DNA of 28,115 nt from Candidatus Fermentibacterota bacterium (GTDB taxonomy: Bacteria; JAFGKV01): positions 1 through 28,115 of the forward strand of contig JAUXFG010000040.1 of NCBI GenBank assembly GCA_030620115.1, in the 5' to 3' direction. The notes beneath the pieces are model-generated. The model did not search any database, was not told the origin of the DNA, and worked only from the letters and a program-made list of their open reading frames with translations. Both the position numbers and the translations under genes were made by a program. Shown piece by piece: positions 1 to 28,115 of this stretch. Within the stretch, counting starts at the first letter, position 1, and every line of letters begins with the position of its first letter.

Positions 1-3000
1 CGGGTTGTTCAGGCTGTCGTCTATGCATGCCCAGACAAACCACGTGCCCTCAGGGGCTGAAAACACGTCCCATACAGCCTGACCCGTGTCAGCGCCGGCT
101 TCCTCTACCGTGGCTATAATCTCCTCGGCGCCGCTGTAGACGTCATCGTCATCGTAGCCTATGGTAACCGTTGCGTTCCGCTCAGGACATGAATCTATCC
201 ACTCGATGGTGTACGATGTCCCTGCGCTGTGCGTCTCGCCTGCGGCCGGTGAGATCAACTCGATGGTGGGCGCCGCCCGTACATTCAAACAGAGCTCCGT
301 CTCTCGCTCGACTACTTGCGTCCCCAGATCTCCTCGGATCCGTACGCGATAGTGCCCCGCCTCACTGAACGCATACGTACCCGAATAGACCCGTGTGCGC
401 TCTTCGTTCAACGTGAGGCTTGCCACTACATCACCGCTCTGGTCTACCAGCTCAAACGCCTCGTTCTCCAACCTCTCCCATTCCAACTTCACCTCTATTG
501 TATCCGTTACTCCTTCTGCTATGCTCCCTGTGCTCAGCAACCGCAGCTCTATGGGGCTCGATCCCCTGGCTATCATGCTGTACTCTATGCTCGGATCCTC
601 GGATACCTCTAATTGCCACTGCCCGACTTGAGGACTCTCCACCTGCCACTGGTACAACCCTGAGTTGGTGTAGCTCGGGCCCACCAGACTCCCGCCCGGG
701 TCCTTCAACTGATATATGCCCCTGGATCGCTCTTTTCCCTCCTCGCGCTCCTTCCTGATTGCCCTCCCCGACCATGCGGACAGCGACACCATTACATCGA
801 GCCGGCTCATCGTTGAGTCTGCGCGCACATAGATCGTATCAGATCCTGCCCCGTCCACCTGTGCCAGGAACGCACGGCTCTCTATCACCAGCGGGATCAC
901 CTTGTACAATGACTCAACTTCCGCTGCCCCGTATGCTTCGAAGTACCCGCCTCCCGATATCCGTGCTGCTTCTCGCAATTCTTCGCTGCAGTTGCTTCCG
1001 TACAGTGCTCCCCCATTGGCCATCAGGAAAATCGGGTCCCACTCCGCTACCTCATGATACGTTGCTGCAACCTGTTCGAGACTGCTGCCAAGGTTGTGAT
1101 AGAAGTCGCTCCATATGCAGATCACCTTGGGCTCGTCATACTCGGCCATAGCGTACAAGGCCGCTTCAAGCAACGGATTCTCCACATCCGTGTTCGGCAT
1201 ATAGCCGGCAAAGGGGTTTACCGGGTTGTATTGCCCCGGCTCGTGCACACCCACGATCTGCGGCGCCGCGGTCCCCAAATACCCTCGTGCATCCTCCAGG
1301 CTGAAGCCGTAGTCTGCGATCTGCTCTATCGTCATGCTGTAGAACCGCCACGCCGCCACTCGCCAGTGCGCTCCTTCATCTTCATCAGCCATCATGTAGT
1401 CTATCAGACGTTGCGGCGAATAGACCTGCGAAAGCTCCCATCCCGCCAGGTTCATGGACGAGCTCGCATCGATTGCGATACAAACGTCCTGGAATGGGGC
1501 AATGTAGCATGCTTGGGTCATATCCCAGTGATAATCGTCCCGCGCTTGGCCTCGACCTCCGCCGGGGCTTTCCGATTCATAGTCGTGCCACTGGCCTGTG
1601 CTGTCTCTATACGCCTCTGTGCTTGGATCCGCGTCCAGAAGGTTTCCCTGGCGATCCCTCCCGTACCCGGCTATCGCCATCTCGCCTCCCATCCGGTTGC
1701 GCATGCTGTCCCATGTGGTGAAAGGGAGCTTGCCGGTCCAGTGAAACTCCGTGCTGTCGTAATCCACCTTCGCCAGTGTCAACTCTAACACCGGATATTC
1801 TCCTCGCATCTGGAGGATCAGTGATTCCTCCATACATGGCTCATTCAGCCAGACTTCAAGAAAAAGCGTATCTCCAGGAAGTGGCATTACCTCCTCCATT
1901 TCCACCTCAAGCTCGCCGTTCACCCATTCTCCGTGGTAGAATTCTATCCGTTCCCTTCCACCCGACGTCCCAAGAATACCTTTCAGCTCTTTCATCATCT
2001 GCACAGAGTAATCCAGCACAATACCCCGTTTCAAATCAGACAGTATCGGGCCGCTCGAGCCATCATACGCCTTCAGCGTGACGTCGTACTTCCCATCTAT
2101 GAAGCTGTCTCCAACCTGATCCCATTCATACGCGAAGTTCCTCCCCGTCTTCGTCATCGCATCCCCTGAAACCATGGTCGTGTTGTTGTATAACCATTCG
2201 ATATCAATGGTCATGGACTGCACGGACAAAGGGTCGGAAACATCCGTGTTGAAGCCTCTTCCCATGACATCAATCGTACCCCACCCCATGGGCCACGTGG
2301 ATTCTCTATCGTCAGTCGTATTCTTTCTCACCCCCGACTTCGGATTGCTTGCCGACTTGCGGAACCCCGGCATGACGAGAGGATACTCATAGGGCTGTGC
2401 ACCCGGCGTCTCCAGGTCCCAGTCCAACGTATCCCCTGCAAGATCCACGGTCCCCGAGATCGTCAACCGCATGTCCCCATACATCTTGGAGATGTCGTCT
2501 TCTGTGACACTTTCTATCTTCCCATGCCACCAGTCGTTCGCCACGTAGAGCGTATCCCAATCATCATTGCCGGTCGCTGCAGGTTGGAACTGAAGCTCGC
2601 TTCCATCTGTCAGGATCAACTTCACGGTTGGATCAACGCCACCGTGTCCATCCAGCAACATAGATTCATTGAACAGCACATAGATCTCGAGTTCCCCAGG
2701 CTGGATTTCTGATCTCAGCACATAGTTCGTATCCGCTTCGTCCCAGGCTCCATCCTCATCATCGTCAACATCGTCCCCATCCATGAACTCATCCCCATCA
2801 TCGTTGTCGTCGTCTGAGTTCCTGAAGCTATCTCCATCCATGTCTTCATCCATCCAGTTGAACACGCTGTTTCCATTCAGATCGCCTTCGTTCAACTTCG
2901 TAATTGCGCTCTGGATCAATAATACGATTTTGATCCTTGGAGGCGCCAATGCCTCAAAGAAGTTGACCCGCCCTGCTCCGAGATGATCCGGACCACGCAA

Positions 3001-4935
3001 TGGTTCACTGGATGAGTTCAGCTCGTCGGTCACATCCCCATGCACATCATCCACCGCTCCTCTGAGGATTCGCACAATCTTCTCCGATGTGGTCGAATTA
3101 TTGGCTGTGATATCATGTTGGTCCTTGACCAGCGCTGCCAAAGCTGCCGCTATGGGGGTCGCAAATGATGTACCACTGACCCCGTCAATCCATAGGGAAT
3201 CGTTGCAAGGCCCTATCGGCCTCCCATCGCAGAGCAAGAACATATCCTCCGCCGGAGCACAGAGTTGCGGCCCCCATTCCCCGGTTCCCCAGCCGCTTCC
3301 ATGAGTGCCTGGTGGTGTGCCGGTGAAGTATCTTCTGTTCTCATCGTCCGTACCGGCTACTTTCACAACGGAGGCATAATCCGCGGGAAACAGACGATCG
3401 TCGGACGGATCCTCATGATCATTCCCTGCGACTGCAAAAGAAACAACGCCTGACGCCCAAGCTGCAGCAAGGCTGTCCTCCACGCCACGCGAGTAGACAT
3501 ATAGCCCGATGCTCATATTGATGATGTCTGCCCCCATGGCACGGGCATAGCCTATCCCCACAGCGAGCCGTTCGTTGAACAGCACATAGTCGGGCGGGTC
3601 TATACTGCTGAATCCTATTGCCATCATCCTGCAGCCCGGGTTCCCGCCAGCGCCATAATCACCATTGTTGGTGGCTGCACCAACCACCCCAGCCACCATT
3701 GTTCCATGATAAGTGAGAAGAGGTGTCCCGGTCGAGTCCTCAAGATTCACTGCATTGACATCATCCACAAAACCATTGCCGTCATCGTCTATTCCATTCC
3801 CCGGGGTCTCGTTGGGGTTAACCCACCACCGGCCTACCAAGTCCTCATGGTCCATCTTGAAGCCCTGATCGATGATCGCCACAATCGTGGTCGCTGATCC
3901 CACTTGAAGATTCCACCCCTCAGGCGCATCAACATCGAAGTCTCGAGAATCATCACCGTCCGAATCGCCCCCATCGGCATCCCTGTTCTGCAGGAAGTGC
4001 CATTGTGAATGCGCTGGATTCGAGCTATAGTTTGGGTCATTGGGATCATTTCGTTCAGGAATATAGGCTCCAATATGGGGATATGCTTGGCATTCAACGT
4101 TTCTTACCTCTGGCCTGTCATACAAGCGATCGCACATCTCTCCTACGCTGACAGTGTCTGCAATGAAAAAGAAGCCATTGGGCGTTGTCCACGAAGGACC
4201 GATTCTGGAGAAGTCCGCTCGCGGATTCAAAAGGATAAGATGCTCCGACTCTGAGAACGCTTGGATCTCGGCGGCGGTGAGCGGATCCACAAAACTTACC
4301 TGGATTTGATTCTTGCCGATGAGGACCCTGCTTCGCCCAGCCGCATCCACAGCAAACGGCGTTGGATGAGCGCCGAGATGCGGCACACCCACAATGTTCT
4401 CTCCCCATCGTGGATCGACATGTTTCGCCTCCACCTCGGTCAGATGTCTTGCTTCAGCAACCGGATCAACGCCAAGGGGAACCTCGAGCTCAAAATGTGT
4501 GCTCGCATACCCTTTGGACTTGGTGAGTACTGTCAGCCCCCGGCTTGCGAGGATAGCCTCTACCTCATCCAAGGGAAGACGATCCGGACATGACAGAGAC
4601 ATTGCCCATCGTTGTCCATGGGGATTGGCTTCGTCCTTTGCACGCACCGGCCGAGTCAAGTATCGAACAGCTTTGACTTCCTCTTCTGTCAGGGCTTCCT
4701 CTCGCCCCACTCGAAGTCGATCAATCACACCTTCATCCACGATTCGTTTCTTGAGCGCCAGCTCCTCCTCCGCACTTAGTCCCAGGTCTACTTCGGCCAT
4801 GTATTCCTCAATCTGACTCCTATGACCTCCACCAAAACCCCAGGCCATACTGCTGAAAGACGACTGTTCGGTCACCCCCATTGCCGCAATGCATACCAGC
4901 GCCAGCATGGGGATCATGCAGATTCGCGATTTCAT
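1..4935 (-). CDS. Large secreted S8 (subtilisin-like) serine protease with Asp-rich segment and VWA domain; 3' end outside window
   Basis: The frame is open from the ATG at 4935 to base 1 (1645 codons visible, no stop), so the C-terminus is cut by the window edge. A strong AAGGAGG lies 5 bases before the ATG. The order of parts is: a hydrophobic signal peptide (about 1-21); a propeptide region (about 30-325) resembling two fervidolysin-type units; an S8 core with Asp356 (VAIIDQGFKMDH), His410 (YHGTMVAGVVGA), oxyanion Asn505 (AVAGND) and Ser590 (GTSFATPIAAA), so the triad is complete; an Asp-rich, thrombospondin-3-like segment likely to bind calcium (about 680-733); an uncharacterised region; a von Willebrand A domain with MIDAS motif DASSS at 1156-1160; and beta-sandwich-like sequence to the edge. 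It is probably a cell-surface or exported protease, with the VWA domain serving adhesion or substrate binding. The substrate is unknown. A truncated paralogue lies directly upstream. Confidence 0.94.
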   Translation of the reverse strand, partial: MKSRICMIPMLALVCIAAMGVTEQSSFSSMAWGFGGGHRSQIEEYMAEVDLGLSAEEELALKKRIVDEGVIDRLRVGREEALTEEEVKAVRYLTRPVRAKDEANPHGQRWAMSLSCPDRLPLDEVEAILASRGLTVLTKSKGYASTHFELEVPLGVDPVAEARHLTEVEAKHVDPRWGENIVGVPHLGAHPTPFAVDAAGRSRVLIGKNQIQVSFVDPLTAAEIQAFSESEHLILLNPRADFSRIGPSWTTPNGFFFIADTVSVGEMCDRLYDRPEVRNVECQAYPHIGAYIPERNDPNDPNYSSNPAHSQWHFLQNRDADGGDSDGDDSRDFDVDAPEGWNLQVGSATTIVAIIDQGFKMDHEDLVGRWWVNPNETPGNGIDDDGNGFVDDVNAVNLEDSTGTPLLTYHGTMVAGVVGAATNNGDYGAGGNPGCRMMAIGFSSIDPPDYVLFNERLAVGIGYARAMGADIINMSIGLYVYSRGVEDSLAAAWASGVVSFAVAGNDHEDPSDDRLFPADYASVVKVAGTDDENRRYFTGTPPGTHGSGWGTGEWGPQLCAPAEDMFLLCDGRPIGPCNDSLWIDGVSGTSFATPIAAALAALVKDQHDITANNSTTSEKIVRILRGAVDDVHGDVTDELNSSSEPLRGPDHLGAGRVNFFEALAPPRIKIVLLIQSAITKLNEGDLNGNSVFNWMDEDMDGDSFRNSDDDNDDGDEFMDGDDVDDDEDGAWDEADTNYVLRSEIQPGELEIYVLFNESMLLDGHGGVDPTVKLILTDGSELQFQPAATGNDDWDTLYVANDWWHGKIESVTEDDISKMYGDMRLTISGTVDLAGDTLDWDLETPGAQPYEYPLVMPGFRKSASNPKSGVRKNTTDDRESTWPMGWGTIDVMGRGFNTDVSDPLSVQSMTIDIEWLYNNTTMVSGDAMTKTGRNFAYEWDQVGDSFIDGKYDVTLKAYDGSSGPILSDLKRGIVLDYSVQMMKELKGILGTSGGRERIEFYHGEWVNGELEVEMEEVMPLPGDTLFLEVWLNEPCMEESLILQMRGEYPVLELTLAKVDYDSTEFHWTGKLPFTTWDSMRNRMGGEMAIAGYGRDRQGNLLDADPSTEAYRDSTGQWHDYESESPGGGRGQARDDYHWDMTQACYIAPFQDVCIAIDASSSMNLAGWELSQVYSPQRLIDYMMADEDEGAHWRVAAWRFYSMTIEQIADYGFSLEDARGYLGTAAPQIVGVHEPGQYNPVNPFAGYMPNTDVENPLLEAALYAMAEYDEPKVICIWSDFYHNLGSSLEQVAATYHEVAEWDPIFLMANGGALYGSNCSEELREAARISGGGYFEAYGAAEVESLYKVIPLVIESRAFLAQVDGAGSDTIYVRADSTMSRLDVMVSLSAWSGRAIRKEREEGKERSRGIYQLKDPGGSLVGPSYTNSGLYQWQVESPQVGQWQLEVSEDPSIEYSMIARGSSPIELRLLSTGSIAEGVTDTIEVKLEWERLENEAFELVDQSGDVVASLTLNEERTRVYSGTYAFSEAGHYRVRIRGDLGTQVVERETELCLNVRAAPTIELISPAAGETHSAGTSYTIEWIDSCPERNATVTIGYDDDDVYSGAEEIIATVEEAGADTGQAVWDVFSAPEGTWFVWACIDDSLNNP

Positions 4936-4947
4936 GATTACCTCCTT
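3775..4947 (-). repeat. Tandem duplicated segment, downstream copy (within intact S8 gene)
   Basis: This stretch runs from the Shine-Dalgarno sequence to just past the catalytic Asp. It is repeated in the same orientation at 5212-6370. The lengths are 1173 and 1159 bp; the difference is explained by five fewer signal-peptide codons and one extra base between ribosome site and start position in the upstream copy. Confidence 0.9.
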
Positions 4948-5011
4948 CTCTGATTCCATGACGTTCGGCTCTCATTAATCAGCTTGTGGATCATGTGTGC
5001 CGACCTCCTGT

Positions 5012-5073: not shown

Positions 5074-6681
5074 CTATCCAGCAGCATCGCTCCTGTCAAT
5101 GCTTCCAACATCCCAATGACTTCTGATCCTCAACATTAGCAAGTTCGAGTCCATAGCCACTCGCTTCAAGGTGCATGGGCGATTATACACCGTGAAGTGA
5201 GTGGCCATGATATTGCCATCATCGTCTATTCCATTGTTCGGGATCTCTCCAAGATTGACCCACCACCGACCTGCCAAGTCCGGATGGTCCATCTTGAAGC
5301 CCTGATCTATGATCGCCACTATCGTGTTCCCTGATCCCAATTGCAGATTCCACCCCTCAGGCGCATCTACGTCAAAATCCCGAGAGTCATCATCGTCTGA
5401 GTCACTGCCATTGGCATCCCTGTTCTGCAGGAAGTACCATTGTGAATGCGCTGGATTCGAACTATAGTTGGGGTCATTGGGATCATTTCGTTCAGGTATG
5501 TAAGCCTCGAAACGAGGATATGCCTGGCATCCAACGTTTCTTACCTCTGGCCTTTCATATAAGCGGTCGCACATCTCTCCTACGTTGACAGTGTCTGCAA
5601 TGAAGAAGAAGCCATTAGGTGTTGTCCACGAAGGCCCGATTCTGGAGAAGTCCGCTCGCGGGTCCAGAAGGATTAGATGCTCCGACTCCGAGAACGCTTT
5701 GATTTCGGCGGCGGTGAGCGACTTGACAAAACGCACCTGGATTTGATTCTTGCCGATGAGCACCTTGCTTCGCCCAGCCGCATCCACAGCAAACGGCGTT
5801 GGATGGGCATGCAGATGCGGCAGACCCACAATGTTTTCTCCCCATCGTGGATCGACATGTTTCGCCTCCACCTCGCTCAGATGTCTTGCTTCAGCAACCG
5901 GATCAACGCCAAGGGGGACCTGGAGCTCAAAATAGGTGCTTGCATACCCTTTGAACTTGCGAAGCACTGTCAATCCTCGGCTTGCGAGGATAGCCTCCAC
6001 CTCATCCAAGGGAAGACCATCCGGACATGGCAGGGTGATCGCCCACCGTTGCCCATGGGGATTGGCTTCGTCCTTTGCACGCACCGGCCGAGTCAAGTAT
6101 CGAACAGCTTTGACCTCCTCTTCTGTCAGGGCTTCCTCTCGCCCTACTCGAAGTCGATCAATCACACCTTCAGCCACGATTCGTTTCTTGAGCGCCAGCT
6201 CCTCCTCCGCACTTAGTCCCAGGTCCACCTCGGCCATGTATGCCTCAATTTGGCGATCATGGCTCCCCTCGAAACCCCAGGCCATACTGCTCAAAAACGA
6301 CAGTTGCATCAGCCCCGCAATCATGCCAAGCCACAGCACGCAATGCCTGAGTCTCGTTGACCCCCTCCTTGAACGAAGCACATCATTCTCCAGGGGCTCC
6401 GCAGGATATCTCACTCTTGCCTGCATATCCCCCTCCGACCATTCAGCCTTATCTACTTCGATGGGGTCAGGAAGCCCGGCCCGCTCGATCTTCACCACAG
6501 CTTTCTTGGCATACGGCGCGAAGTTATCAATGATGACTCGAGCTGAATCTCGGACAGAGCGTCCCTGATGATCTAATGAATCCATACCCGCCGATAAGCC
6601 ACGACACAGTGCAAGATACCGGGATTGCTCCACGTGGAGCAATCGGTAATGACCCCGGAATCCGCCCAGCCTGTCGGACAT
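5074..6681 (-). CDS. Truncated S8 protease paralogue lacking catalytic His and Ser (probable pseudogene or propeptide-only protein)
   Basis: The frame from the ATG at 6681, 8 bases after the parB stop, encodes 535 residues. The first 108 codons resemble nothing I know and run through the parS palindrome. From about 6357 onward the sequence is collinear with the start of the large S8 protease: hydrophobic signal segment, propeptide region and the catalytic Asp motif (VAIIDQGFKMDH). Homology stops just after NGIDDDGN (near 5212), followed by 45 unrelated residues and a stop. The His and Ser blocks are absent, so it cannot be an active protease. By hand alignment about 42 of roughly 365 residues differ, without indels after the signal region. 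At the place of the ancestral start the well-preserved AAGGAGG (6364-6370) is followed by ACG (6357-6355) instead of ATG. The true start could be 6681, a GTG at 6339 or an ATG at 6324. It is either a decaying duplicate or, speculatively, a stand-alone propeptide acting on the intact protease. Confidence 0.75.
   Translation of the reverse strand: MSDRLGGFRGHYRLLHVEQSRYLALCRGLSAGMDSLDHQGRSVRDSARVIIDNFAPYAKKAVVKIERAGLPDPIEVDKAEWSEGDMQARVRYPAEPLENDVLRSRRGSTRLRHCVLWLGMIAGLMQLSFLSSMAWGFEGSHDRQIEAYMAEVDLGLSAEEELALKKRIVAEGVIDRLRVGREEALTEEEVKAVRYLTRPVRAKDEANPHGQRWAITLPCPDGLPLDEVEAILASRGLTVLRKFKGYASTYFELQVPLGVDPVAEARHLSEVEAKHVDPRWGENIVGLPHLHAHPTPFAVDAAGRSKVLIGKNQIQVRFVKSLTAAEIKAFSESEHLILLDPRADFSRIGPSWTTPNGFFFIADTVNVGEMCDRLYERPEVRNVGCQAYPRFEAYIPERNDPNDPNYSSNPAHSQWYFLQNRDANGSDSDDDDSRDFDVDAPEGWNLQLGSGNTIVAIIDQGFKMDHPDLAGRWWVNLGEIPNNGIDDDGNIMATHFTVYNRPCTLKRVAMDSNLLMLRIRSHWDVGSIDRSDAAG
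5212..6370 (-). repeat. Tandem duplicated segment, upstream copy (within truncated S8 gene)
   Basis: This is the partner of 3775-4947. Conservation is highest over the propeptide. The signal-peptide codons have diverged strongly, and the 3' boundary near 5212 is sharp, where the reading continues into unrelated sequence. No transposon end or target-site duplication was seen at the boundary, so unequal recombination is a likely origin. Confidence 0.88.
6623..6644. promoter_or_regulatory. parS: parS-like ParB binding site
   Basis: This is a perfect 22-bp palindrome whose 16-bp core is TGCTCCACGTGGAGCA. The classical bacterial parS is TGTTTCACGTGAAACA, and as I recall a GC-richer form TGTTCCACGTGGAACA is used by Myxococcus. 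The core here differs from the latter at two symmetric, mutually compensating positions. It begins 45 bp downstream of the parB stop, a usual setting for parS. It lies inside the open frame assigned to the truncated S8 copy, which weakens the case that this part of the frame is coding. Confidence 0.85.
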
Positions 6682-6688
6682 TGCTGAG

Positions 6689-7525
6689 CTAACTTCCCTT
6701 CGCGTCTTGAGGCAACTTGACGAGAAGATTGGCGATCCTCTCAAGATCCTCAAACGACTGAAAGTGGATCTCGATAAGACCTCGCTTCCCCCGATACTTG
6801 ACCTTCACTTCGGCTGCCAATGCTCCCATCAACGTGTGTTGGAGCGCTGGAATGTCCATGCTCCGCTGAGCATCCCTAGCGCATCCTAGAGACCTCCGCG
6901 TAATCTTCTCCAGCTCTCTAACCGAGAGCTCCTCTGAGATGACGGCTTTCGATAGAACAATCTGTTGCTCAAGATCGGCGATCCTGAGAAGAACCTTGGC
7001 ATGGCCAGGCGTCAGGCTCCCATCTCCAACGGCTGCCTGGAGCTCAGGGGGAAGAGTCAGAAGCCGCAGCGTGTTCGAAACTGTCCCTCGCTTCTTGCCG
7101 ATTCTCGTTGCGACCTCCTCCTGCGTCAAGCCTCCCTGGCTCATCAACTCCTTATAGGCTGCTGCCGTTTCAATAGGGTTCATGTCCTCACGCTGAATAT
7201 TCTCCACGAGCGCCAGCGTGAACGCCTCCATGTCTTCCACATCGTCCTTGACAATAGCCAGCACCGTCTTCGTGCCTGCCCGGCGCGCCGCCCTCAGTCT
7301 CCTTTCGCCGATGACAATCTGGTATGCACCTTCGATCTTTCGTACCACGATGGGCTGCAGCATACCTTGCTTTTTCAGGGAGTCGGCAAGCTCCTCAATG
7401 CTCTCCTTGTCGAACCGCTGTCTGGGCTGCAACGGGCTTGGTTGTATCTCGTCAATTGGCAGGTGAACTATAGCTGTGGCCTTCTCCGGTTTGCCACTGA
7501 TCTTTGGCTCTTCCGATCTATCCAT
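6689..7525 (-). CDS. parB: Chromosome-partitioning protein ParB (ParB/Spo0J family)
   Basis: A 278-residue ParB of usual length. The N-terminal CTP-binding domain (about 20-110) shows IQPSPLQPRQRF, GERRLRAARRAG and ENIQREDMNPIETAAAY. The central helix-turn-helix reads LTQEEVATRIGKKRGTVSNTLRLL, and a C-terminal dimerisation region follows. ParB loads at parS as a CTP-dependent sliding clamp and, with ParA, segregates replication origins and recruits SMC. The ATG at 7525 is preceded by AGAGGGG at a proper distance. A near-ideal parS palindrome lies just beyond the stop. parA usually sits directly upstream on the same strand, but that side (7526-8850) holds no such gene and I found no decayed ParA motif there. 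Family assignment is secure. Confidence 0.97.
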   Translation of the reverse strand: MDRSEEPKISGKPEKATAIVHLPIDEIQPSPLQPRQRFDKESIEELADSLKKQGMLQPIVVRKIEGAYQIVIGERRLRAARRAGTKTVLAIVKDDVEDMEAFTLALVENIQREDMNPIETAAAYKELMSQGGLTQEEVATRIGKKRGTVSNTLRLLTLPPELQAAVGDGSLTPGHAKVLLRIADLEQQIVLSKAVISEELSVRELEKITRRSLGCARDAQRSMDIPALQHTLMGALAAEVKVKYRGKRGLIEIHFQSFEDLERIANLLVKLPQDAKGS

Positions 7526-7804: not shown

Positions 7805-8459
7805 ACGAAGTCGGATGCCAGGATCTATTGGGAAGTCGCTTCATTTCTCTATGTATTGTTTCATGTCTCTCCATATCTCAGCTGATCCAAACTCCATCAT
7901 CCGTCTCGATTTATTTGTCTCTTCTCAGACACTCCTCGCCTTCATCTTCATCCCATCACCCACGGTTGAACCGGCTGCCTTCTGTCCGTTCCGAGGCGGT
8001 TTTGCCCCAATAACCAAGCTAACGAGTATCATAGCAAAAGCTGCCAGCTCGCATGATTGTCTTCCATGTATCTGTTCCGGATGAATTGACCGCTGCCTCC
8101 TTCTTGGGCACAGTATGTCTCAACTTGCCGGTGTCGTTCACAGTAGGGCATTGCTCGAGTTTGTCAAGATCTCATAAACCTCTCAACCGAGCTACGAATG
8201 CCAACCGAAGTTCCCCGTTTGGCCCTTCATTCGTGCGAGCAACATCAACCCCGTCAGTACCAGCGTCGCTACCAGGACCAATGGTCCTTGATACCAAACC
8301 TAATGCCGATTCAAATCCTCAACCACACTCGGGAGAATTCAGGGGGCACAGCCAGACAATTTCGCTGAACGAGAATGACCAAAATCAATGTGTAGACAGC
8401 AAGGACAAGAAGCAGCGCCAGCAGACCCCTCAGACCCGCCGATCATCCTCCTCGGGCCC

Positions 8460-21921: not shown

Positions 21922-21976
21922 CGCTGACCAGAAACTTTGTCTCGAACTTCGTCTCGAACTTCGTCTCGAACTTCTT
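21922..21976 (-). repeat. 12-bp minisatellite, copy 2 (inverted relative to copy 1)
   Basis: Read on the minus strand the units are GAAGAAGTTCGA, GACGAAGTTCGA, GACGAAGTTCGA and GACAAAGTTTCT, followed by GGTCAGC. The closing GACAAAGTTTCNGGTCAG matches the end of copy 1 at 17 of 18 positions. It lies about 50 bp upstream of the operon promoter. Confidence 0.85.
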
Positions 21977-22093: not shown

Positions 22094-22199
22094 CGAACAT
22101 TCAACATCGAACATCGAACGTCCAACGCCGAAGTCAGAGAGATCAGAAATTGGAGGCGTTCTTCGTTCCCATGGTTCAATGTTCGATGTTGAATGTTCG
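22094..22199. repeat. Long inverted repeat of ATGTTCGATGTT-type sequence
   Basis: The arms at 22094-22114 and 22179-22199 are perfect 21-base reverse complements, built from repeats of TTCGATGTT/AACATCGAA. Further imperfect units flank both arms. I recall similar GTTCGATGTT repeats dispersed in intergenic regions of planctomycete-like and candidate-phylum genomes. No coding role is visible. Confidence 0.7.
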
Positions 22200-22204
22200 A
22201 TGTT

Positions 22205-22330
22205 GAACGTTTCCGCCCGCCTGTCCTGCCTGTCCTGAGCGTAGTCGAAGGGAGCAAAGTCGAAGAAAGCAGAATCGAGGGGCGGGTGGCCCCACTAACC
22301 CGCATTTCTCATCCCGCGTCCGCCGCGGGA
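22205..22330. repeat. GC-rich dispersed-repeat cluster downstream of the TSUP gene
   Basis: It contains CCTGCCTGTCCTGAGCGTAG-TCGAAGGG, a motif I recognise as widely dispersed in environmental bacterial genomes. A GCGGGT/ACCCGC stem (22282-22287 with 22298-22303) and a TCCCGCG/CGCGGGA stem (22312-22318 with 22324-22330) follow. The last could help end transcription of the TSUP gene, though no T-tract follows. Confidence 0.55.
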
Positions 22331-23955: not shown

Positions 23956-25932
23956 TTGAAAAACCACGTGCAGCAATCCATTGACTATGCCGAGGTTGGT
24001 CTCATTGCCGGCCTGGAGGTCCACCAGCAACTGCTCACCGACCACAAGATGTTCTGCCGTTGCCCGGCGGGGCTATACACGACGGAGCATGACGGTGAGT
24101 TATTGCGGCACATGAGGCCCACGCTCTCTGAGCTCGGAGAGTACGATGGCACCGCGCTCATGGAATTCAAGACCAAGAAGAACATCATCTATCTCCTGCA
24201 CAAGAGCAACGTATGCACGTATGAGATGGATGATACACCGCCTTTTCTGATGAATCAGAAAGCGCTGGACGTGGCCGTGGAACAGTGCCTGATGCTCGGT
24301 TGTGACATTGTCGACGAGGTGCACGTCGCACGCAAACAATACCTGGACGGCTCTATCCCCACCGGATTTCAGCGGACTGCAATCGTCGGCGTGAATGGGC
24401 GACTTCCGTTTCGAGATCGTGAGTTGTCCATCACGCAGGTGAGCGTAGAGGAAGATAGCTGCCGGGAGGTATCAGACAAAGGTCACCTCATTGTCTGGCG
24501 TACCGATCGCCTGGGCATGCCGCTTATCGAAACCGTGACAGGTCCGGACCTGCGCACACCGGACGAGGTTGTAGAGGCCATCCTGCTTATAGGCCGGGTC
24601 TGTAGGAGCACCGGGCATGTCCGTGTCGGGCTTGGCGCCAGCCGTCAAGATGTCAATGTCTCTGTGCGCGGCGGACGCCGTGTGGAGATCAAGGGCGTGC
24701 CGCAGGCTTGGTGGGCCCGCGGGCTGGTCCACGGTGAGGCGATTCGACAGGTGAACCTGCTGCGCTTGCGCGAAGAGTTGCACCAACGGGGATTCAAGCG
24801 GCCGGAGGACTTGGTCATCAGCCATTCCGACGTAACAGACCTGTTCGCGGCCTCGGCGCTGCCTTTCCTCAGCCCGGGGAACTGGGAACGCTTCGTGAGA
24901 CAGGAACACCGGCGACCTGGATTCGAGCTTGGGCAGGGGCCTTTCTGCGTGCGCGCGGTGAAGCTGACGGGACTTGCCGGAACCCTGAGTTGGCCCACTC
25001 AGCCTGAATACACCTTTGCGCATGAGCTGGCGGGCCGTGTGCGAGTCATCGCCGGGCTCGATCAGCAGCCGATTTTGCTCCATACTGAGAAATGGCCCGA
25101 CTATGCTGATTCTCATCGGGAACTCCGCAAGATCAAGCAGAGGCTTCGGTGTGGACCTCGTGACGTTGCGGTCATCATATGGGGGCCTATGCAGGACACC
25201 CTTGCCGCAGCGGACGAAATCCGCCTCCGCTTCCAGGACGCCATGGACGGCGTGCCTCTCGAAACCCGACAGCCATTCCTGGATGGAAGCACCGATTTCG
25301 AGCGGATCCTGCCCGGGCCGGATCGTATGTACCCCGACACGGACAGTCCGCCCATTCGGATGACACGTGAGCGAGTGAATCGACTCCAGACGACGCTTCC
25401 TCCGCCGCCTTGGGTCAGGGAGGAACGCTACAGTGCCGTGGGTATTCCGCAAAGTACGATTCATTTTCTCATCCGCCGAAATGGCGCGGCGCTTGTGGAT
25501 TATGTCGTCGAGGAATGCAAGGCCGGGCTTCGGGATACATGTTTCTTCTTCGGCGAGCGGCTCAAAGGGCTTCGCCGAAGCGGCATTCAGTTGGATGCGA
25601 TCTCGAAAGCGAGATGGTGTGAGTTCTTCCATGCCATAGCCGATCGACCGGTCCTTCAGGAAGCGTGGCGGGAGATACTCTCCTGGATGCTCGACGCACC
25701 TGACCGCACGGTGAATCAGCTCGTCGAGGAGAACGGGTTGTTGGAGGATACGTCCGGGTGGGACTGCCTGGTTACAGAAATCGTCGAGAGCTGTCATCCA
25801 AATCGCGACGATGGCTCTCCCGAACGACGATTCCGGTTCTACATGGGTCGAGTGATGCCGAAGCTGCGCGGCAGGGTGCCCGCTCGAGAGGTGGGCGCCG
25901 TCCTACGGCTGAAGTTGGAACGATCCAAATGA
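23956..25932 (+). CDS. gatE: Glu-tRNA(Gln) amidotransferase subunit E (archaeal type)
   Basis: 658 residues, slightly longer than archaeal GatE. GatE phosphorylates Glu-tRNA(Gln) and uses ammonia from GatD to make Gln-tRNA(Gln). Visible features are the GatB/E hallmark GLIAGLEVHQQLLTDHKMFC with the first Cys pair (CRC) of the metal site, KQYLDGSIPTGFQRT, the ATP and phosphorylation region (TQVSVEEDSCREV; GLGASRQDVNVSVRGG), and an AspRS-like insertion with GVPLETRQPFLDG and PDRMYPDTDSPPIRM. That insertion separates GatE from bacterial GatB. A YqeY-like helical tail ends the protein. The start is TTG at 23956 with GAGAGGA upstream; the residues after it match the usual GatE N-terminus. gatD follows after 25 bases. 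Bacteria normally use GatCAB, so this gene pair is unusual. Confidence 0.95.
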   Translation: MKNHVQQSIDYAEVGLIAGLEVHQQLLTDHKMFCRCPAGLYTTEHDGELLRHMRPTLSELGEYDGTALMEFKTKKNIIYLLHKSNVCTYEMDDTPPFLMNQKALDVAVEQCLMLGCDIVDEVHVARKQYLDGSIPTGFQRTAIVGVNGRLPFRDRELSITQVSVEEDSCREVSDKGHLIVWRTDRLGMPLIETVTGPDLRTPDEVVEAILLIGRVCRSTGHVRVGLGASRQDVNVSVRGGRRVEIKGVPQAWWARGLVHGEAIRQVNLLRLREELHQRGFKRPEDLVISHSDVTDLFAASALPFLSPGNWERFVRQEHRRPGFELGQGPFCVRAVKLTGLAGTLSWPTQPEYTFAHELAGRVRVIAGLDQQPILLHTEKWPDYADSHRELRKIKQRLRCGPRDVAVIIWGPMQDTLAAADEIRLRFQDAMDGVPLETRQPFLDGSTDFERILPGPDRMYPDTDSPPIRMTRERVNRLQTTLPPPPWVREERYSAVGIPQSTIHFLIRRNGAALVDYVVEECKAGLRDTCFFFGERLKGLRRSGIQLDAISKARWCEFFHAIADRPVLQEAWREILSWMLDAPDRTVNQLVEENGLLEDTSGWDCLVTEIVESCHPNRDDGSPERRFRFYMGRVMPKLRGRVPAREVGAVLRLKLERSK

Positions 25933-25957
25933 CAAGGGCCCTGCAAGAGAGGCGGAT

Positions 25958-27352
25958 ATGAGCCGATCCAATGATGAGCTGAAAGGTTACAGGGGTCTAT
26001 CGCGCAGCAAACTCACCGAATGGGGAATACGCGTCTGGAGTGATGTGCAAGTCCTCAACGACGCAGGCAGCATGTTCGAAGGCGTTGTCCTACCGCGTAG
26101 CGAGACTCTCGATGACCTACATATCGTCATCAAGATGAGGAACGGCTACAACATCGGCATCCACGTGGATCGGGTGCGTTCCATCAAGGAGGTCGGATAC
26201 AAAGAAGCGGTCTACAAGATCCCGGAGAAGGACTTCCCGCGCAGTCCCGAACTGCCCAATGTCACGCTTCTCGGGACAGGCGGGACAATTGCGTCGCGCC
26301 TAGACTATCGTACCGGTGCGGTCATCCCGGCGTTCACCCCCGGCGAACTCTACGGCGCCGTGCCTGAACTAGCCGACATCTGCAACTTGCAGACGAAAAA
26401 GCTGTTCGGTGTCTTCTCGGAAAACATGGCGAGCCGGGAGTATATCATTCTCGCGAAAACCATCGGAGACGAAATTGCCACTGGTGTAGATGGGATCGTT
26501 ATAGGCCATGGAACTGACACCATGGGCCATACTGCGGCCATTCTCAACTTCATGGTCCAGAACAGTCCCGTTCCCATCGTGGTCGTTGGCAGCCAGCGTA
26601 GCTCCGACCGACCTAGCAGCGACGCGGCCCTGAACCTCATCCACGCAGTGCGAGCGGCAGCATTCGGCAACATCGCCGAGGTACAAATCTGCATGTTCGG
26701 CCCGACCTCTGACCGCTACGGCCTGCTCCATCGCGGCACACGCTGCCGCAAGATGCATAGTTCCTACCGAAGCGCATTTCGCACCATCGGTGATATCCCC
26801 CTCTGCATAGTGAACCGGGACAGCTTCACCTATCTCACCGAGGACTATCTTCCGCGTGACTCACAGCGCCAGGTAGTCACTGATCCACTCTATGATGACC
26901 GCGCAACTATCCTCTACTACTACCCAGGCATGAGTCCCGATTTGGTCGATGCACTCGTAGAGAAGGGCTATCGTGGCATTGTTATTGCGGGTACGGGCCT
27001 GGGCCACGTCAACAAGCCTCTTTATCCTGCCCTCGAGAGGGCCATCAAGCTTGGAGTCCATGTAGTTATGACCGTGCAGACCCTCTGGGGGTATGCTCAG
27101 ATGTATGTCTACGATACGGGACGCGACCTTCTTGATATCGGCGTAGTGCCACTGGATAATATGTTGCCGGAAACCGCCCTGATGAAACTGTGCTGGGTGT
27201 TGGGGCATACGGATGAGCACGACGAGGTGCTGCGACTGATGCGCCACCCTGTTAACCACGAGATCACCGAGCGTGAACCCCACAACGGATACCTCATTCT
27301 GCAGGGTGGGCTGCCGGAGACCGAGGAGTTCACCAAATCGCACTGGAAGTAA
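25958..27352 (+). CDS. gatD: Glu-tRNA(Gln) amidotransferase subunit D (asparaginase-like, archaeal type)
   Basis: 464 residues. GatD hydrolyses glutamine or asparagine and passes ammonia to GatE. The N-terminal domain (about 15-90) has the GatD pattern GVVLPRSE, DDLHIVIKMRNGYNIGI. The asparaginase-like domain carries all four catalytic residues: Thr110 (LLGTGGTIAS), Thr186-Asp187 (IGHGTDTMGH) and Lys265 (GTRCRKMHSSYRSAF). GSQRSSDRPSSDAALNL is likewise typical of GatD and separates it from free asparaginases. AGAGAGGCGGAT precedes the ATG. The C-terminus is some 20-40 residues longer than archaeal examples. It forms an operon with gatE and converges on glutamine synthetase, which makes one of its substrates. 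Confidence 0.96.
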   Translation: MSRSNDELKGYRGLSRSKLTEWGIRVWSDVQVLNDAGSMFEGVVLPRSETLDDLHIVIKMRNGYNIGIHVDRVRSIKEVGYKEAVYKIPEKDFPRSPELPNVTLLGTGGTIASRLDYRTGAVIPAFTPGELYGAVPELADICNLQTKKLFGVFSENMASREYIILAKTIGDEIATGVDGIVIGHGTDTMGHTAAILNFMVQNSPVPIVVVGSQRSSDRPSSDAALNLIHAVRAAAFGNIAEVQICMFGPTSDRYGLLHRGTRCRKMHSSYRSAFRTIGDIPLCIVNRDSFTYLTEDYLPRDSQRQVVTDPLYDDRATILYYYPGMSPDLVDALVEKGYRGIVIAGTGLGHVNKPLYPALERAIKLGVHVVMTVQTLWGYAQMYVYDTGRDLLDIGVVPLDNMLPETALMKLCWVLGHTDEHDEVLRLMRHPVNHEITEREPHNGYLILQGGLPETEEFTKSHWK

Positions 27353-27381: not shown

Positions 27382-28115
27382 CTATATATTGAAGTAGAGC
27401 GAGAACTCCTTAGGATGAGGCATATTCCGGACCAGCTTTGACTCCGCCCTCTTGGTTCTTATCAGTGCGGCAATGAGTTCCGGCGGGAATACCTCTCCGG
27501 CAAGAAGATAGGCGTGATCCTCTTCCAAGGCGTCCATGGCTTCTGTCAACGTTTCGGGAACAGACTTGAGGCTATCTCGCAACTCCTTGTGCGCGTCGTC
27601 GAACATGTCTTCCTTGAAGGGGCCAAAGCCCATTTCTTCGGCATTCAGGCTGCGTTTGATGCCGTCGATCCCCGCCATCAGCATGGCAGACATTGCGAGA
27701 TAGGGATTGCAGGTGGCATCGGGCGGACGGAACTCCATGCGCTTGTCTTCCGGTGATGTGGCATACTTTGGGATACGGATTGCGGCACTCCTATTCGCCA
27801 CGGTGAAGAAGAGCTTCACCGGAGCCTCGAAACCGGGGACAAGGCGTTTGTATGAATTGGTGCTGGGGTTCGTCACTGCAATGAGGGATCGCCCGTGATC
27901 GAGAATGCCCGCGACATACGAAAGGGCCATCTTGCTCAGCCCGGCATAGCCGGATTCCTCATAGAACCACGGCCCATTCTCGGAACGCAGCAGCTGGTGG
28001 AAATGCATCCCACTCCCTGCGTGACCATGAAGCGGCTCCGGCATAAACGTCGCAACCTTGCCATAACGGCGAGCCAGCATTCTTACGAAGTACTTGATGA
28101 TCATGCTCCGGTCAG
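27382..28115 (-). CDS. glnA: Glutamine synthetase, C-terminal part (5' end outside window)
   Basis: The frame enters from beyond base 28115 and ends at 27382, so about 244 C-terminal residues are visible. They include the ATP-binding and metal motifs of type I glutamine synthetase: KVATFMPEPLHGHAGSGMHFH, NPSTNSYKRLVPGFEAPV (Asn flap region), NRSAAIRIP and MEFRPPDATCNPYLAMSAML. It makes glutamine from glutamate, ammonia and ATP. The NLYDLP-type tyrosine that is adenylylated in enterobacterial enzymes is missing; the aligned region reads FGPFKEDMFDD, so control by adenylylation is unlikely. The end, MPHPKEFSLYFNI, is normal. An internal ATG at 28104 is not the start, since conserved sequence continues upstream of it. 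Confidence 0.96.
   Translation of the reverse strand, partial: DRSMIIKYFVRMLARRYGKVATFMPEPLHGHAGSGMHFHQLLRSENGPWFYEESGYAGLSKMALSYVAGILDHGRSLIAVTNPSTNSYKRLVPGFEAPVKLFFTVANRSAAIRIPKYATSPEDKRMEFRPPDATCNPYLAMSAMLMAGIDGIKRSLNAEEMGFGPFKEDMFDDAHKELRDSLKSVPETLTEAMDALEEDHAYLLAGEVFPPELIAALIRTKRAESKLVRNMPHPKEFSLYFNI

Follow-up and report, generated by a model that had tools for sequence, protein, structure and literature searches.

How does a bacterium come to carry GatDE, an amidotransferase that reviews of 2021-2022 call exclusively or only archaeal (PMC8762117; PMC9499178; PMC8007984), and what could the enzyme do there? The question is raised by the adjoining genes gatE and gatD on a 28,115-nucleotide stretch of DNA (hereafter the window; positions 1 to 28,115 of contig JAUXFG010000040.1, assembly GCA_030620115.1) from a Candidatus Fermentibacterota bacterium. 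A first, sequence-only reading had taken the pair for an archaeal-type operon that reached a bacterial genome by old transfer or was retained in a candidate phylum. The genome is indeed bacterial and the genes are intact, but the pair is no archaeal-type oddity of one lineage. GatDE is a known family, and we found that it has a separate, widespread bacterial branch, contrary to the reviews, which mostly occurs beside glutaminyl-tRNA synthetase (GlnRS) and probably stands alone in the window genome. Here, the products of gatE and gatD quite probably form a functional bacterial Glu-tRNA(Gln) amidotransferase that, judged from gene content, is most likely the only source of Gln-tRNA.

Both subunits of the gatE-gatD pair

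GatE combines a GatB/GatE catalytic domain, an AspRS-like insert (approximately residues 283-432) and a helical and YqeY tail, with the Pfam domains GatB_N and GatB_Yqey. Over its full length it matches the models NF003107 (480.7 bits, cut-off 456) and TIGR00134 (411.6 bits, cut-off 319.6), and the motifs of its catalytic domain are fixed in 34 to 77 bacterial GatEs. The AlphaFold model (predicted local distance difference test score, pLDDT, 87.7) aligns as a whole with 515 residues of Methanothermobacter thermautotrophicus GatE (2d6f, Z 37). Within this predicted structure, residues 283-431 resemble E. coli AspRS (Z 12.8) and residues 283-432 resemble AspRS insertion domains (Z 10-13). The model thereby bears out what had been proposed from the letters alone, namely the presence of the AspRS-like insert that separates GatE from GatB.

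Separated from gatE by 25 bp, gatD encodes a protein with the domains GatD_N (PF18195, 51.9, cut-off 25.7), Asparaginase and Asparaginase_C. GatD scores 488 bits against NF003217 (cut-off 310) and 483 bits against TIGR02153 (cut-off 324). A stand-alone type I or type II asparaginase was considered and rejected, as the GatD models score 483-488 bits compared to 352 bits for type I asparaginase, and gatE adjoins. The four catalytic residues mentioned in the sequence-only reading are all in place: T110, T186, D187 and K265, which by analogy to E. coli AnsB should form the asparaginase tetrad, do not vary among 28 aligned bacterial GatDs; in 60 bacterial GatDs they are fixed, and so are the motifs TGGT, HGTD and RK. 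With matches over the curated NCBIfam equivalog cut-offs, the expected Pfam domains and fixed catalytic motifs, both genes are thus, by their sequence, complete and under constraint, and the earlier claim of completeness holds for both reading frames (Table 1).

Both proteins are longer than the archaeal chains in the PDB, as had been noticed earlier (GatE 658 compared to 619-633 residues, GatD 464 compared to 435-438). This is not a local adaptation, since the length typifies the whole bacterial branch, in which GatD nearly always has 463-464 residues. The length of GatD is explained by a C-terminal extension of about 25 residues (EREPHNGYLILQGGLPE...) that is conserved in bacterial GatDs.

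Gene content for Gln-tRNA synthesis

As contig 235, the window belongs to a 4.1 Mb metagenome-assembled genome (MAG) of 296 contigs, which is 98.3% complete with 1.56% contamination; the absences given below rest on searches of this draft assembly with its gaps. GatB was not found: GatE alone matches GatB_Yqey (PF02637), and it is also the sole match of the gatB model, far below the cut-off. The genome search gave no match to the amidase family (PF01425), and thus no GatA. No GlnRS exceeded the cut-off of its family model, and a relative's GlnRS used as query retrieved no fragment at E values up to 10, its only match being the glutamyl-tRNA synthetase (GluRS). This bacterial GluRS (TIGR00464, 483.6 bits) is the single class-Ic synthetase of the genome, and genes for tRNA-Gln(CUG) and tRNA-Glu(CUC) lie directly behind its gene, gltX. 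Glutamine codon usage is normal, with 156 such codons among the 4,422 of ten window genes. AsnRS (552 bits) is present, so that GatDE is not needed for Asn-tRNA, and the genome also has bacterial AspRS and EpmA. Because GatB, GatA and GlnRS are absent from the assembly, GatDE is most likely the sole route to Gln-tRNA. The sequence-only reading had reasoned that a lack of gatCAB and glnS would speak for an essential role, and with both missing from the assembly, the pair is likely to be essential.

In the pathway that we propose, the single GluRS would load glutamate onto tRNA-Glu as well as tRNA-Gln. GatD would then split glutamine and release ammonia, while GatE would use ATP to activate the side-chain carboxyl of Glu-tRNA(Gln), which it would amidate to Gln-tRNA(Gln). 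The GluRS belongs to a different subtype from that of the two family relatives, G001 and G002, in which gltX and glnS form an intact pair (G001:C209, G002:C227). To us this suggests that the direct route was replaced or lost in the window genome and that GatDE took over.

Several observations weigh against GatDE as a working sole route. Genes for tRNA-Asp, tRNA-Ile and tRNA-Gln(UUG) are missing among the typed tRNAs of the genome (5 of 36 are untyped); some content is therefore missing, and glnS could sit in a gap. The GluRS keeps an arginine at the position of Thermus thermophilus R358, where arginine is linked to discrimination, so that its sequence gives no sign of tRNA-Gln misacylation. 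A GlnRS-bearing relative has the same arginine, which is why this position decides neither way and why GluRS type was dropped as a sign of non-discrimination; in the GluRS tree, too, GluRS clade showed no association with GlnRS absence. Finally, GatDE coexists with GlnRS in most other carriers, and sole use is not the rule.

This last point, together with the missing tRNAs, speaks for an alternative to which we assign a low but appreciable probability: GlnRS may be present in a gap, perhaps with a second GluRS, and GatDE may be an auxiliary enzyme, either repairing the Glu-tRNA(Gln) that GluRS forms by mistake or offering another route when nitrogen supply calls for it. We surveyed 51 distinct GatDE-bearing genomes (G051 being G001), 49 of which were informative for GlnRS after the incomplete G013 and the archaeal-labelled G048 had been set aside. 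GlnRS was detected in 42 of the 49, both family relatives included, 38 times over the cut-off and four times as a fragment (G011, G029, G036, G046), in most cases next to a gap or where a contig stops. We considered G029 and G046 as GlnRS-less genomes and rejected this, as the match starts at a 100-N scaffold gap in the former and at a contig end in the latter, and both probably have the enzyme. Cut glnS copies thus leave fragments in other drafts, but none was found in the window genome. Its completeness (98.3%) and its different GluRS subtype likewise argue against a hidden GlnRS, and no second GluRS was seen in G001 or G002. GatB was over the cut-off in 18 of the 51 carriers; among the seven informative genomes in which GlnRS was not found, three (the window genome, G026 and G042) also yielded no GatB. 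For the window genome we therefore favour GatDE as the sole source of Gln-tRNA, while beside GlnRS it may repair mischarged Glu-tRNA-Gln or serve as a second route.

The survey also revealed some peculiarities of synthetase genes. In many GatDE-bearing bacteria gltX and glnS are neighbours, sometimes with tRNA-Gln nearby, and in G044 an 843-residue GlnRS frame has a further match to the tail part of the gatB model. G026, G011, G031, G038 and G045 each carry two GluRS-like genes. One of those in G026, where neither GlnRS nor GatB was found, lies near tRNA-Gln(UUG) and could encode a GluRS dedicated to tRNA-Gln.

It is improbable that bacterial GatDE has taken on a different task, such as the amidation of Asp-tRNA(Asn) or of some other substrate, instead of making Gln-tRNA. 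The joint occurrence with GlnRS in most carriers would fit such a change, as would 35 fixed or nearly fixed columns that differ from archaeal GatE, some of them in the conserved catalytic domain. However, all catalytic residues are kept, and the three genomes without GlnRS and GatB would have no Gln-tRNA without GatDE. Of the 40 carriers tested, 34 have an AsnRS over the cut-off, and fragments occur in others, so that Asn-tRNA needs no amidotransferase; Asn-tRNA synthesis was accordingly rejected as the role of GatDE.

As a supplier of Gln-tRNA, the bacterial enzyme would have to accept a bacterial-type tRNA-Gln with U1-A72 and a small D-loop. The archaeal enzyme reportedly recognizes the A1-U72 pair and the D-loop of tRNA-Gln (PMC9499178), the latter by its smaller size (PMC4810234). 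The small D-loop is also found in the carriers, with 7 nt in 7/7 tRNA-Gln genes compared to 8 nt or more in tRNA-Glu. A1-U72 is not: the first base pair is U1-A72 in all seven tRNA-Gln genes seen, that of the window genome included. Bacterial GatDE must therefore recognize its tRNA differently at the acceptor end. At one carrier locus (L041), a tRNA-Gln(CUG) gene (7819-7890, minus strand) lies about 110 bp from gatE, divergently on the other strand.

The bacterial branch of GatDE

GatE was found in all three genomes examined from the phylum of the window genome, and a scan of species genomes returned at least 80 loci, nearly all labelled as bacteria, with more than 12 labelled phyla in the bacterial clade. 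Labelled hosts among the matches listed are Ignavibacteria, Phycisphaerae (for example CP070718), Acidobacteria, Aminicenantes, Myxococcota, Zixibacteria, KSB1, Cloacimonetes, WOR-3, Fermentibacteria, Krumholzibacteria, Eisenbacteria, Gemmatimonadetes and others; these MAG labels are those of the database records and certainly include errors, yet the breadth holds whichever single label is dropped. Bacterial gatDE is also located on the Ignavibacteria chromosome CP054675 (L061), which is a single contig, and on JAGNLW010000001 (L075), a contig of 1.3 Mb. In the class of one Ignavibacteria genome, GatE exceeded the cut-off in 38 of 149 genomes and is thus common but patchy; none was found in viral contigs. 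The usual order is gatE-gatD, while gatD is divergent, convergent or upstream of gatE at loci L051, L052, L094, L109 and L118.

In a tree of 112 GatEs, 79 bacterial MAG sequences and one from a MAG labelled Thermoplasmatota make up one side of a fully supported branch. Rooting with GatB rendered bacterial and archaeal GatEs sister clades (SH-like approximate likelihood ratio test, SH-aLRT, 99 and 95), with the bacterial sequences not nested in the archaeal ones. The root position is provisional, given long GatE stems and a narrow archaeal sampling (Thermoplasmatota, two PDB species and one haloarchaeon). The 35 signature columns hold residues that hardly vary, if at all, among bacterial GatEs and are uncommon in archaeal ones; one example in the conserved catalytic domain reads RKQYLDGSIPTGFQRT in bacteria and RKIVIDGSNVSGFQRT in P. 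abyssi. The phylogeny that the sequence-only reading had recommended for GatE thus puts the window protein into a well-supported bacterial clade, sister to the sampled archaeal sequences.

The exceptional MAG in this clade, labelled as a Thermoplasmatota archaeon (G048; L116, 167-1882), holds a GatE with 43% identity to that of the window, compared to about 32% for the archaeal PDB chains. As the genome also has an archaeal-looking GluRS match, this GatE reflects either a bacteria-to-archaeon transfer or a binning error.

Among the matches listed, the window GatE is closest to those of six MAGs labelled Acidobacteria or Myxococcota/Deltaproteobacteria (65-71% identity); it shares 47-48% with its own family relatives G001 and G002 and about 32% with archaeal PDB chains. 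An approximately unbiased (AU) test rejected a single clade for the GatEs of these three family members with a full-length set of 645 columns and 28 rows (p = 1e-8), but not with a trimmed set of 444 columns and 91 rows (p = 0.20). Separate origins are thus favoured but not settled, and transfer of gatDE between bacteria is the likeliest reading, although not proven. Overall, the pair belongs to a distinct branch that has long been in bacteria and probably moves between them.

The dissimilarity to the family relatives could also arise in a chimeric bin, if the contig with gatDE or that with GluRS were foreign to the genome, and the latter is a draft MAG with some estimated contamination (1.56%). 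We regard this as very unlikely, since the genes around the pair are bacterial and similar to it in GC content, the gatDE and GluRS contigs have 55.2% and 55.6% GC, respectively, and bacterial gatDE also occurs on the chromosome and the long contig named above. Even less credit is due to a recent transfer from an archaeon, which the described exclusivity of GatDE (PMC8762117; PMC9499178) would suggest: the window GatE lies in a multi-phylum bacterial clade that is sister to archaeal GatE, on the bacterial side of a fully supported branch, its nearest relatives are bacterial and the GC content of gatDE fits the window, so that no such transfer is needed.

Bacterial GatDE shares both subunits, domain order and catalytic residues with the archaeal enzymes of M. 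thermautotrophicus (2d6f) and Pyrococcus abyssi (1zq1), that is, GatD_N plus asparaginase fold in GatD, and catalytic domain, AspRS-like insert and YqeY tail in GatE. It differs in GatE identity (about 32%), its separate clade, the 35 signature columns, the C-terminal extension of GatD, the U1-A72 pair of tRNA-Gln, a bacterial-type GluRS partner and its frequent position beside GlnRS. The archaeal host, the so-called archaeal signature of GatDE, is replaced here by a bacterial genome and clade; that signature describes the distribution given in reviews, not the enzyme. Bacterial GatCAB carries out the same overall reaction, and GatB is homologous to GatE in the catalytic and tail domains. However, GatCAB employs the amidase GatA as glutaminase instead of the asparaginase-like GatD, has a GatC subunit and a GatB without AspRS-like insert, and is absent from the window genome. 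GlnRS yields the same product, Gln-tRNA(Gln), but charges glutamine directly; it occurs in most other carriers and was not found in the window genome.

Published accounts exclude the combination of GatDE and GlnRS for archaea (PMC9499178). We found no report of the bacterial GatDE branch in the open-access literature, while a report in a subscription journal is possible. Tentatively, GatDE could be an old enzyme of two domains of life, with a deep bacterial branch that co-evolved with U1-A72 tRNA-Gln and acts beside GlnRS as a repair system or second route, letting lineages drop GlnRS and return to indirect charging. The bacterial branch opens two testable questions: how GatDE recognizes bacterial tRNA-Gln, and which function an amidotransferase has in a cell that already possesses GlnRS. 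In such genomes, pathway predictions that discount GatDE matches as contamination from archaea would go wrong.

Surroundings of gatDE in the window

Next to gatD, the window ends within a glutamine synthetase gene (Table 1). The same gene, glnA, is located directly upstream of gatE in G001, G002, L060 and L092. This adjacency is consistent with a function in glutamine metabolism, but it is no general feature: glnA is adjacent in few lineages only, and the neighbour scan found no conserved third partner of gatE and gatD.

Table 1. Positions of gatE, gatD and further features in the window
Feature	Position	Strand	Description
gatE	23956..25932	+	Glu-tRNA(Gln) amidotransferase subunit E; 658 aa, TTG start
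gatD	25958..27352	+	Glutaminase subunit, asparaginase fold; 464 aa, ATG start
glnA, C-terminal part	27382..28104	-	Glutamine synthetase type I (TIGR00653, 2.5e-86); convergent with gatD, runs off the window
Subtilase-like gene	1..4959	-	Secreted protein
Subtilase-like gene, near-copy	5074..6753	-	Secreted protein
ParB/Noc-like gene	6689..7525	-	
Short tandem arrays	21933..21974; 22174..22211		12-bp unit AACTTCGTCTCG; 14-bp unit GTTGAATGTTCGAT

The bacterial surroundings described in the sequence-only reading were recovered as far as the parB, fabH, GWxTD and hybrid-kinase genes are concerned. The parS site was not, as the window contains no 16-mer that differs from TGTTTCACGTGAAACA at two positions or fewer. 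At the far end, two near-copies of a gene for a subtilase-like secreted protein adjoin each other, of which the one at 5074..6753 diverges from the other in the catalytic region, ends early and looks like a truncated tandem duplicate. Two arrays of short tandem repeats lie upstream of gatE.

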